NCBI GenBank assembly: GCA_947625205.1
Contig: CANQNN010000010.1
Coordinates: 1 to 64,000 of the forward strand
Reading direction: 5' to 3'
DNA length: 64,000 nucleotides
Source: an uncultured Lachnospiraceae bacterium
Lineage (GTDB): Bacteria > Bacillota > Clostridia > Lachnospirales > Lachnospiraceae
Shown here: positions 860 to 4,891 of the stretch, piece after piece
How positions within the stretch are numbered: the first letter of the stretch is position 1
Layout of the letters: the number at the start of each line of letters is the position of its first letter
The notes under the pieces: model-generated
Databases searched by the model: none
What the model was told of the DNA's origin: nothing
What the model saw: the letters and a program-made list of their open reading frames with translations, nothing else
Made by a program: the position numbers and the translations under genes

Positions 860-2077
860 TCATTTTTCATCGGCTATTATCTCATCAAGAACTTTTCCCA
901 TCCTTGTTATCATAGGGACGACCAATGCATTACCCATGCAGAAATAGCGCATACGGTCAGGCATCCCGGTATTTGTCCATTCATCATCAAATCCTTGGAG
1001 CCGCTCTGCTTCGACAGGAGTAAGGAGCCTTAATCTGCCAGTCCCTAAGTCTGATACAACATGTGTAGAACGGCTGAGCGTAGATTCGTTAGTCAACATT
1101 GTGCGCCCCGGTTTATTCCACGGGTCGGGAAAGGCAATAGGTCCTTCAGAAAATACATACTTATGGCCGGTGCTAGATGTTCTGGGGATTTTTTTAGCAC
1201 CTTTGAGATAGGTCCACTTTGGCATTTTATCGCCGGGTATGTAGTATTTTTCATCAACATTTTTCTGAAGGATGTCGCCTAATAAACATGGTTTTTCTTC
1301 ATCTTCTAAGACTTTGGAAGTGTATATGATGCCTTGATACATGTAGCCGGCGTTTTCAAACGAAAATGCAAAATTGTCACTGACATCAACGATATCATCA
1401 CTAATAGATGTTTTGAGAATAGGTCCCATTTCTTTAAGGGGAAATGCTTTTGCCATCAAGCCCTTGCTCTCAATAATTTCCTGCGCAGAAATATTCGCCA
1501 TCTTTTCCCGGTATATAGTGTCTTTATGGTAAGCAAATATGAATGTTCGACGTCTACGCTGCGCTGCACCATACTGGGCGGCGTTGACGATACGCCATTC
1601 TACACTATATCCAAGTGCAGATAAACATGCCAAAATAACACCAAAATCGCGACCGCGCTGTTTGGCAGGAGACTTCAAAAGTCTATCAACATTTTCGAAG
1701 ATGCAGAAAGGAGCTTTTTTTGCTATAAGTACATCCCGGATCTGCCACCACAGTACCCCTTTCTTACCTTCGATCCCTTGAGAGGAAGCAAGTGTGTGAG
1801 CTACACTGTAATCCTGGCAGGGAAAGCCTCCTACTAAAAGGGAGTGGTCAGGAATGGTCGACTTATCTACTGAGCCTATGTCTTCGCCTGTATGGTACTC
1901 TCCGTTCATGTCGACACTGTCTCCATAGTGTTGTACATAACATTGATGTGCCCATTGAGTTTTGGCACCAGGCTCCCATTGTGAGAACCATGTAGTTCTC
2001 CAGCCCGTTTCGAGTCGATCAAATCCCAAACGAAATCCACCGACCCCTGCGAAAAGTTCGCAAATCGTTTTTTGCAT
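860..2077 (-). CDS. DNA (cytosine-5-)-methyltransferase, M.Sau3AI-like
   Basis: ELFAGVGGFRLG, GGFPCQDYSVA, FENVDRLLKSPAKQRGRDF, QRRRRTFIF and LTPVEAERLQGF motifs. RBS aaaggagggcttt before ATG at 2077; the 2110 start is probably too long. Confidence 0.92.
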   Translation of the reverse strand: MQKTICELFAGVGGFRLGFDRLETGWRTTWFSQWEPGAKTQWAHQCYVQHYGDSVDMNGEYHTGEDIGSVDKSTIPDHSLLVGGFPCQDYSVAHTLASSQGIEGKKGVLWWQIRDVLIAKKAPFCIFENVDRLLKSPAKQRGRDFGVILACLSALGYSVEWRIVNAAQYGAAQRRRRTFIFAYHKDTIYREKMANISAQEIIESKGLMAKAFPLKEMGPILKTSISDDIVDVSDNFAFSFENAGYMYQGIIYTSKVLEDEEKPCLLGDILQKNVDEKYYIPGDKMPKWTYLKGAKKIPRTSSTGHKYVFSEGPIAFPDPWNKPGRTMLTNESTLSRSTHVVSDLGTGRLRLLTPVEAERLQGFDDEWTNTGMPDRMRYFCMGNALVVPMITRMGKVLDEIIADEK

Positions 2078-2122
2078 AAAGCCCTCCTTTGACTGATCAT
2101 CAGCCAGCACGCTTAGTATTTA

Positions 2123-2377: not shown

Positions 2378-2518
2378 TTGGAAATTACAAAAAAAGGATC
2401 CGCAAGCTACACTGTTGAAAGAAAGTTTTTAGCGAAGATCTCCGTCGCTGAGTTTGTTAGGCGCATTATTCAGTCCCATATAAAGTATGGAAGTAAGCTG
2501 GAGGATGCCGCCGTATGA
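2378..2518 (+). CDS. Small ORF (46 aa) preceding the recombinase: MEITKKGSASYTVERKFLAKISVAEFVRRIIQSHIKYGSKLEDAAV
   Basis: TTG start with strong RBS (aggaggga). The stop overlaps the next ATG (ATGA). Confidence 0.55.
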   Translation: MEITKKGSASYTVERKFLAKISVAEFVRRIIQSHIKYGSKLEDAAV

Positions 2519-2589: not shown

Positions 2590-4185
2590 ATGAAGAAACA
2601 ATTACTTTTCAATGTGGCAGAATATATTAGGTTATCCAGAGAGGACGGCGATAAAGCAGAGAGTGACAGTATCGGAAATCAAAGAAAGCTTATTGCGGAT
2701 TATTTAAAGGACAAAGACGATTTTGTTTTGTATGACACCTATGTTGATGACGGTTTTACAGGAACGAACTTTAAACGGCCTGCATTTATGAGAATGATAG
2801 AGGACATAGAGGCCGGGAATGTTAACTGCGTCATAGTGAAAGATCTATCCAGATTTGGACGTGACTATATCGACACGGGGAAGTATTTGGAACGATACTT
2901 TCCAGATCATGATATACGATTTATATCTATTACGGACAATATCGACAGCATGAAGCAGGCTTATGATATGCTGCTCCCGATAAAGAATATCTTTAACGAG
3001 CAATATGCGAGGGATATTTCAAAGAAAGTCCGTTCGTCCATGAAGGCGAAACAGAAAGCAGGGGAGTTTATCGGAGCTTTCACATCCTATGGATATAAGA
3101 AATCTCCTACAGATAAAAACAAGCTGGTAATTGATAAATATGCTGCCGGAGTCGTTCGTAGAATTTTCCGTATGTATATTAGCGGCCTCGGAAAGAGTAG
3201 CATCGCGTCAGCTTTGAATAAAGAGGGAATTGTCTGTCCTTCTGAATACAAGAAGATGAACGGAGAGAATTACAGAAACAGTCACAAGCTGGAAAGTACC
3301 TCTTACTGGACCTATTCAACGATCAATCGTTTACTGCAGAATGAAATGTATGTCGGAAACATGGTCCAAGGCAGAAAGACACAGCGCATGAGAGGCAAAC
3401 AATATGCGACAGATAAGGATGATTGGATCATTGTAAAAGGCACGCATGAAGCGATTATTGATGAAGATACATGGAACAAAGCGCAGGACTTATTAAAACG
3501 CCGGACGCGTGATCTTGATTTAAACACCAATATGTCGATTTTTGCAGGCTTTATAAAATGTGGAGATTGCGGCAGGTCTTTAGTTAAGAAAGTAGGCACA
3601 CCGGGACATGGCGAGGGGATCATCAACTATTATTGTGGGACTTATGTACGTTCCGGCAGACAGTATTGTACTCCGCACCCTATGCCACATCTGGTTTTGG
3701 AAAAGATCATCCTTGATGATTTGAAAACGATCATACAGAGCGTTGATGATCTTCGGGAGGTAGTCAGAGAGATCTACGCGGCAATAGGAGCAGCAAAGCG
3801 TGTTACAGTTGATGAGAAGAACTGGCTGAACACGGAACTGGAAAAGGTCAGGAAGTTGAAGAAAGCTATTTATGCTGACTACCGGGAAGGACTGATTTCT
3901 AAAGAGGAGTATGTTACATATCGACAGGATCATCTAAAGAAAGAGGAACAGCTGGAAAAGCAGCTTAAGAGTCTGGAGGAAAGACAAGAGTTAGAAACTA
4001 ATACAGATATTTTTGAAACACCGTGGATAAAGCGTTTGGTTGAACTTCGCAGCATAGAAAAGCTGGACAGGGATATTGTAGTGGAAATACTGCATGAAAT
4101 TAAAGTGTATGAGGACCATAAAATCGAGATTACTTACAACTTTTCTGATGAGCTGGCAGCTCTTTTCAAAAGTCAGGTCCCATAG
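2590..4185 (+). CDS. Large serine recombinase (resolvase/recombinase/zinc-ribbon domains)
   Basis: YIRLSREDGD...ESDSIGNQR resolvase N-terminus, VKDLSRFGRDY, recombinase domain, CGDCGRSL zinc-ribbon cysteines, C-terminal coiled coil; 531 aa. Confidence 0.95.
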   Translation: MKKQLLFNVAEYIRLSREDGDKAESDSIGNQRKLIADYLKDKDDFVLYDTYVDDGFTGTNFKRPAFMRMIEDIEAGNVNCVIVKDLSRFGRDYIDTGKYLERYFPDHDIRFISITDNIDSMKQAYDMLLPIKNIFNEQYARDISKKVRSSMKAKQKAGEFIGAFTSYGYKKSPTDKNKLVIDKYAAGVVRRIFRMYISGLGKSSIASALNKEGIVCPSEYKKMNGENYRNSHKLESTSYWTYSTINRLLQNEMYVGNMVQGRKTQRMRGKQYATDKDDWIIVKGTHEAIIDEDTWNKAQDLLKRRTRDLDLNTNMSIFAGFIKCGDCGRSLVKKVGTPGHGEGIINYYCGTYVRSGRQYCTPHPMPHLVLEKIILDDLKTIIQSVDDLREVVREIYAAIGAAKRVTVDEKNWLNTELEKVRKLKKAIYADYREGLISKEEYVTYRQDHLKKEEQLEKQLKSLEERQELETNTDIFETPWIKRLVELRSIEKLDRDIVVEILHEIKVYEDHKIEITYNFSDELAALFKSQVP

Positions 4186-4278
4186 GTATTTAACGGATAA
4201 TGCTGTTATGGCGCTATATATCATGGATATAGGCAGCTGAGAAAGACAATATATACAAGCAGAAAGGTGGTGTTAGGC

Positions 4279-4356
4279 ATGACGGCAATAGCAAAACAGA
4301 CAGTAGGATCGCCTGAAATGTTACCGCAACTAATTTCCGCCCCACGGCGGAGCTGA
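4279..4356 (+). CDS. Small ORF (25 aa) spanning the element/chromosome junction: MTAIAKQTVGSPEMLPQLISAPRRS
   Basis: RBS-like aaaggtggt 8 nt upstream. Runs across the junction in a frame different from the amidase. Confidence 0.3.
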   Translation: MTAIAKQTVGSPEMLPQLISAPRRS

Positions 4357-4891
4357 TCCCGGTAAAGTGGGTATAGACGGCAGTCTTGAGAAGGATATCA
4401 ACCTGCGGATAGCGCTGAAGCTGAAGAAATTACTGGAAATGCAGGATGTGGAGGTCGTTCTGACGCGGGATTCCGACAGCGGACTTTACGATGAGAATGC
4501 TTCCAACAAGAAGGTGCAGGACATGAAAAACCGCGTCGCCTTGATCGAGGAGCATCAGCCGTTGCTGACGGTCAGTATCCATCAGAACAGTTATCATGAG
4601 GAGTATGTTCACGGCGCGCAGGTTTTCTATTATGCAAACAGTGAGAAGAGCAAGGAACTGGCGCAGTGTATACAGCGGGTCATAGCGCAGGAAGTGGACC
4701 CGGACAACACCCGACAGGCGAAGGCAAACGACAGTTATTATCTGCTTAAAAAGACTTCTTCGCCCATCGTTATCGTGGAGTGCGGTTTTTTGTCCAATTA
4801 TGAGGAGGCACAGAAGCTGTCGTCGGATCTGTATCAGGAGAAAGTCGCATGGGCGATCCATCTGGCGGTATTGCAGTATCTGAACAGCTGA
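4334..4891 (+). pseudogene. cwlD: N-acetylmuramoyl-L-alanine amidase (CwlD-like), 5'-truncated at the element junction
   Basis: Frame reads (stop TAA 4331) FPP-HGGADPGKVGIDGSLEKDINLRIALKLKKLLE...VSIHQNS...VECGFLSN. The expected V(I/V)DPG preceding HGG and the N-terminus are absent. Confidence 0.8.

Follow-up and report, generated by a model that had tools for sequence, protein, structure and literature searches.

What is a large serine recombinase doing directly upstream of a sporulation amidase gene that has lost its beginning? The question is raised by the window analysed here, a stretch of 64,000 nucleotides at the start of contig C10 in the draft genome (2.9 Mb, 44 contigs) of an uncultured Lachnospiraceae bacterium. 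The original prediction, made from the letters of the window, held that an element with a serine recombinase interrupts a CwlD-like gene at its catalytic motif, that precise excision could restore the gene and that the arrangement is possibly a skin-like developmental switch. Our analysis favours, with a probability of about 0.85 for the explanation as a whole, a small integrative cassette that is driven by a large serine recombinase (LSR), carries restriction-modification cargo and has inserted site-specifically into cwlD.

A cwlD-like gene split between two contigs

The LSR gene (2590–4185, plus strand) is followed in the window by an amidase frame that a TAA at 4331–4333 closes. Past this codon the frame (FPPHGGADPGKVG...) is open as far as 4891, reading FPPHGGADPGKVGIDG... 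uninterrupted up to the stop at 4889–4891, exactly as had been described. The part from HGG to the stop (4343–4891, plus strand) matches Amidase_3 (E 3.6e-45), has CwlD (TIGR02883, 199.7 bits) as its best family and starts with the codon for the first zinc-ligand His, at 4343–4345. The missing 5' fragment had been predicted to lie to the left of the window; it exists, but the window begins at a contig end and the fragment is on another contig, C9 (3922–4104, minus strand, near the contig start), where it was located by searching the same genome with the N-terminus of a congener's CwlD. It is 72% identical to that N-terminus and ends in ...VVIDAGHGGGK-stop.

An 8-bp core, CACGGCGG, is common to both junctions, and counted up to this junction the 5' fragment (C9:3926–4104) ends in ...VVIDAGHGG. 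The attL site reads GATGCCGGG-CACGGCGG-CGGTAAATAGCGG (C9:3933–3926), while attR (4320–4350 of the window, plus strand) combines an element arm with the core at 4343–4350 and reads TTACCGCAACTAATTTCCGCCC-CACGGCGG-AGCTGATCC. Because both junctions carry the same core, the gene was split by site-specific recombination and chance juxtaposition is no explanation. On either side of the core, the attP arms are inverted repeats of each other (TTACCGCAA...CCGCC / GGCGGTAAAT.GCGGT) in the window genome (G000) and in a congener (G030), and the same repeat, slightly diverged, is present in the cassette of G061; such arms are what the attP of an LSR is expected to have.

Rejoining the flanks at the core gives one open frame, the ATG-started part of which encodes 239 amino acids and is collinear with the genes of intact congeners; with both halves undamaged, precise excision could restore cwlD, in keeping with the original prediction. 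CwlD is by far the best family of the rejoined protein, but its score of 211.1 bits for TIGR02883 is below the curated cut-off of 221.55, and we therefore call it CwlD-like. A Sua5 gene follows the cwlD-like gene of the window, and likewise a split cwlD-like gene in another genus. Among the other genomes of the genus, 35 of 36 have a cwlD-like gene (75–88% identity). The intact congener gene reads CVVIDAGHGGADPGKV, and nearly all congeners inspected have an intact gene with CVVIDAGHGG.DPGK, the gene of G030 being itself split. The attB site would correspond to the codons for D-A-G-H-G-G of cwlD. Estimates of dN/dS for the interrupted halves are ~0.07–0.10 in G000 as against ~0.03–0.09 for intact pairs, and neither the G000 nor the G030 halves show relaxation or a rate increase over intact orthologues; such values would be expected after a recent insertion as well as in a switch that is being maintained.

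The window genome contains no second CwlD-like gene that might serve as a back-up: the other two Amidase_3 genes, on contigs C2 and C40, are not CwlD-like, and a back-up cwlD was rejected. With the 5' fragment located and no second intact cwlD found, two of the grounds on which the original prediction could have fallen do not apply. The same lack of a back-up holds for the cwlD-interrupted genomes G000, G030, G061, G062, G069 and G071, where no second CwlD-like gene was found at or above ~50% identity. The host carries two sporulation markers, Spo0A and SpoIVA, which agrees with the earlier suggestion that it plausibly sporulates.

Anatomy and cargo of the element

The element appears to consist of C9:1–3933, an unassembled insertion sequence (IS) in the middle and C10:1–4350. 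Because of this gap its continuity is deduced, as is its length of some 8.3 kb without the IS. The window opens with the end of this multi-copy IS (1–76), including a terminal repeat, CTTAACTTAATGCCATTG, at 59–76, and the same repeat starts contigs C9, C10 and C35. The first 58 bp of C10 are also common to C35, which has the same start. Next to the IS end lies a 10-bp target duplication, GACCTTATGA, at 77–86, and the same 10 bp, TCATAAGGTC, flank the terminal repeat at both the C9 and the C10 breaks. These breaks fall within a gene of the element itself: the N-terminal half of a Sau3AI-family restriction endonuclease (NF040973, model residues 1–232) occupies 46–759 of the window on the minus strand, and the C-terminal half (residues 238–475) occupies C9:98–757, the two halves scoring 322 and 234 bits. 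A multi-copy IS inside the Sau3AI gene probably broke the assembly, and for this reason the other end of the element lies on C9.

The further cargo comprises a C5-cytosine DNA methyltransferase (860–2110, minus strand; PF00145, E 4.1e-56; TIGR00675), Vsr, a SAM methyltransferase, a 398-residue protein without assigned function and small open reading frames. No phage structural or lysis genes and no conjugation genes were seen in the assembled part of the element. Between the LSR gene and attR (4186–4330, plus strand) lies a degraded toxin-antitoxin remnant, recognizable from the frame remnants YLTDNAVMALYIMDIGS and MTAIAKQTV by comparison with the open reading frames of the closest relative, the element of G061, in which a toxin-antitoxin pair is intact at the equivalent place.

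The recombinase and a candidate directionality factor

The LSR is an intact protein of 531 residues with the catalytic-Ser motif YIRLSRED. Its Resolvase, Recombinase and Zn_ribbon_recom domains all exceed the Pfam cut-offs, and it matches the integrase family phrog_95 (E 3.2e-107). A second, distant LSR (32% identity) is encoded elsewhere in the same genome (C6:8116–9642).

Upstream of the LSR gene is an open reading frame for 46 residues (2378–2518, plus strand) with a TTG start preceded by AGGAGG. It matches no Pfam or PHROG family, yet most related loci have a homologue immediately ahead of the LSR gene; the motif Y.[IV]ER[EK]FL...RII..H was found in ~28 distinct loci and was not recognized at L045, L075, L084 and L086. 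Most recombination directionality factors (RDFs) that act with LSRs are small proteins with little sequence in common (PMC5025042), so the 46-residue protein, placed as it is, is named here only as a candidate RDF. Ahead of both genes, at 2314–2341, lies an imperfect palindrome (GCATATTGGATAAGCTGTATCTAATATGC in relatives) that an alignment of the upstream regions shows to be conserved throughout the family. It is a candidate operator or promoter and could carry control. No convincing sigma-E or sigma-K promoter was recognized by eye upstream of the small frame or the LSR, and the 8 sigma-70-type matches in the same regions are about as many as chance would give (6.2).

A family of elements with several targets

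Relatives of the LSR were gathered from congeners, from GTDB species genomes and from an even sample of 396 genomes of the family. They show 54–89% identity and adjoin genes of two kinds: those for CwlD or other amidases, interrupted at HGG, and those for PdaB-like deacetylases, interrupted at TFDAAWG. In the first group, LSRs of 59–89% identity have amidase fragments beginning with HGG ~20–560 bp away. The first sets yielded 15 loci of this kind, the window included, in which the LSR is followed by such a fragment, and in every one the amidase 3' half is open to its natural stop. About eight of these 15 targets are CwlD-like; others include amidase+SPOR proteins, one of which, in G066, has no signal peptide and presumably resembles CwlC of Bacillus subtilis. 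In the second group, two rejoined deacetylases score 216.7 and 217.2 bits for PdaB (TIGR02764) and 133–146 bits for PdaA; PdaB is their best family, but the scores are below its cut-off of 237.4 bits, and we therefore refer to them as PdaB-like. In the even sample, 15 of the 396 genomes had a close LSR, and an amidase or PdaB-like fragment lay beside it in 8 of the 14 sampled loci other than that of the window. Several related LSRs had no recognized target next to them.

Complete cassettes with both halves of the target measure 2.8–23 kb, and the rejoined genes are usually open. Those in cwlD include G030 (3.35 kb), G061 (9.5 kb) and G063 (23.2 kb), whose rejoined gene also best matches CwlD; the 2.8-kb cassette of G066 lies in an amidase+SPOR gene, and those of L065, L068, L070 and L071 lie in PdaB-like genes. 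In each of these eight the halves are in frame. In G070, from the Erysipelotrichaceae, both halves are present, though we do not count the gene as restored; it encodes a secreted amidase with no obvious tie to sporulation. The cargo, named by eye, is unrelated from one cassette to another: toxin-antitoxin genes only in G066, an Rpn-type nuclease in L070, an AAA ATPase in L071 and a protein of 1050 residues in G061. The cassette of L068 (571–5430) carries what by eye is metabolic cargo, with genes of a sugar phosphotransferase system (HPr, enzyme I, IIA, IIBC-like) and a NagB-like gene.

Neighbours in the LSR tree, and even near-identical LSRs, differ in the gene that they have entered and in the bacterial family of the host (L041 in a deacetylase gene and L063 in cwlD; L073 and L074). 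These are recently active mobile elements. The family is broadly mobile and not dedicated to cwlD, since its attB sites lie in the catalytic-motif DNA of several genes for amidases and deacetylases.

A few loci depart from the common arrangement. At the left end of L066 (~1600–1800) the deacetylase 3' half is shortened to a frame of 79 residues that excision can no longer repair, and in L075 (5025–7949) the deacetylase halves are oppositely oriented on the two sides of the LSR, as an inversion after insertion would have left them; these two are not restorable by simple excision, and at least one relative has thus decayed. In L062 (342–4550) two related LSRs stand in tandem around one deacetylase 3' fragment. 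A second, unrelated insertion in cwlD was seen in the Lachnospiraceae isolate 1xD8-48 (L118, G065:C82, 1866–10970), where the cwlD-like gene is cut near residue 205–220 by an element of ~8.2 kb with three serine recombinase genes.

Discussion

In the mechanism that we propose, the LSR cassette integrates at an attB made of the D-A-G-H-G-G codons of cwlD. Integration would leave CwlD switched off, since it severs the first zinc-ligand His from the remaining enzyme. The LSR, probably with the 46-residue protein as directionality factor, would excise the cassette and so restore the gene in at least some cells. The element is thus mobile, apparently reversible and directed at a catalytic motif. 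We saw no excised circle and no empty site from the same strain; attP was unmatched in viral contigs, a weak test, and the LSR relatives found there are only ~32% identical.

The same locus might be an ordinary recent insertion that inactivates cwlD, with excision rare or absent and the strain either impaired in germination or losing sporulation, and we give this account not far short of an even chance. According to a survey of LSRs, these enzymes generally need an RDF for excision and many are found inside genes (PMC10083194). The different targets and hosts of neighbours in the LSR tree make the insertions look recent, the IS has already entered the cargo of the window element, and L066 demonstrates that a 3' half can decay. 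Against this account, 15 of 15 amidase 3' halves in the first set have stayed open, and the halves in G000 and G030 have not accelerated, although a recent insertion predicts as much.

A true developmental switch would be a stronger form of our preferred explanation and does not exclude it: excision would be timed to the sporulating mother cell, CwlD would be made only then, and the element would be kept because it gates sporulation or does not harm it. In Clostridioides difficile (PMC3789822) and B. subtilis (PMC517825) cwlD is a sigma-E gene, while SpoIIID, a regulator of the mother cell, binds ybaN (pdaB), and cwlC has a role in mother-cell lysis (PMC3789822, PMC517825). Because model spore formers express cwlD and ybaN/pdaB as mother-cell (sigma-E) genes, the element could leave in that cell, which dies in any case, at no cost to itself or to the spore lineage. 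The dominant targets of the family (cwlD, PdaB-like and CwlC-like amidase+SPOR genes) would suit such timing, as would the two intact halves, the lack of a back-up CwlD-like gene in the genome, the sporulation markers, and a conserved small frame and palindrome that could carry control; skin, SPbeta, gin and yin act in this way (PMC5025042, PMC4191935, PMC5595907, PMC10747680). A skin-like function is plausible. Yet the conserved block upstream of the small frame and the LSR is a palindrome and not a recognizable sporulation-type promoter, the secreted amidase of G070 has no obvious link with sporulation, and the element looks recent and highly mobile across families, with L066 and L075 broken. 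Sporulation-timed excision is thus a tentative proposal, with the odds against it. What stands of the switch as originally predicted is the LSR element, the intact halves and the restorable frame; dedication to cwlD does not, given the several wall-enzyme genes that the family uses. It is unlikely, if conceivable, that gut Bacillota harbour a widespread cassette clade specialized on mother-cell spore-wall genes (cwlD, pdaB-like, cwlC-like), which would integrate at an attB in their catalytic motifs and leave again in the mother cell; this would amount to repeated, independently evolved excision switches in sporulation.

An assembly chimera or binning artefact that placed an unrelated element beside cwlD, as a junction near a contig end in a draft of 44 contigs might suggest, is very improbable, since the junction cores are identical on two contigs, the two parts of the amidase gene fit together in frame, those of the Sau3AI gene complement each other and the independent assemblies G030, G061, G062 and G071 have the same architecture.

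As a site-specifically inserted cassette, the window element resembles skin, SPbeta, gin and yin in its anatomy, and is nearest to gin, which is likewise non-phage. The gin element of Bacillus cereus ATCC 10987 also encodes a serine recombinase and interrupts a sporulation gene, gerE, that can be restored; its shared core is 9 bp, as against 8 bp here, and it has a small partner, GirX, where the window element has the candidate 46-residue frame (PMC5595907). It differs in host class, target and cargo, has three recombinases instead of one, and its sporulation-specific excision is proven (PMC5595907), whereas for the window element such excision is a hypothesis. In skin, too, a serine recombinase splits a mother-cell gene that precise excision restores (sigK, in B. 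subtilis and C. difficile), and in C. difficile the RDF decides when excision occurs; skin is phage-like, in contrast to a restriction-modification cassette in cwlD whose family moves among several wall-enzyme genes (PMC5025042). SPbeta in spsM and yin in yabG are also recombinase-bearing elements that split sporulation genes, but they are prophages or prophage-like and each has a single target gene, unlike the family described here (PMC4191935, PMC10747680). LSRs in the survey repeatedly use one conserved intragenic site, as in genes for Mg-chelatase and prolyl isomerase; amidases and deacetylases are named nowhere in its main text (PMC10083194). The present clade differs in that it uses the codons of catalytic motifs, and does so in two families of cell-wall enzymes that are unrelated to each other. 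The literature searched, which covered few subscription journals, describes no intervening element in cwlD or pdaB; it held no paper on cwlD with a serine recombinase and nothing relevant on cwlD with a prophage or insertion. Within those bounds the target genes and hosts are new, and so is an LSR clade that uses catalytic-motif codons.

Some two dozen related insertions reveal a recombinase clade that lands where a gene can change least, on the codons of its catalytic motif, which would explain how it finds targets in many hosts. As its att sites show, this LSR family has two target motifs in nature. If excision is not timed to sporulation, these elements would account for some of the patchiness of sporulation among the Lachnospiraceae. 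If it is, spore formation in common gut bacteria would be switchable by mobile DNA, and related elements at conserved sites of wall-enzyme genes may make spore formation reversible.
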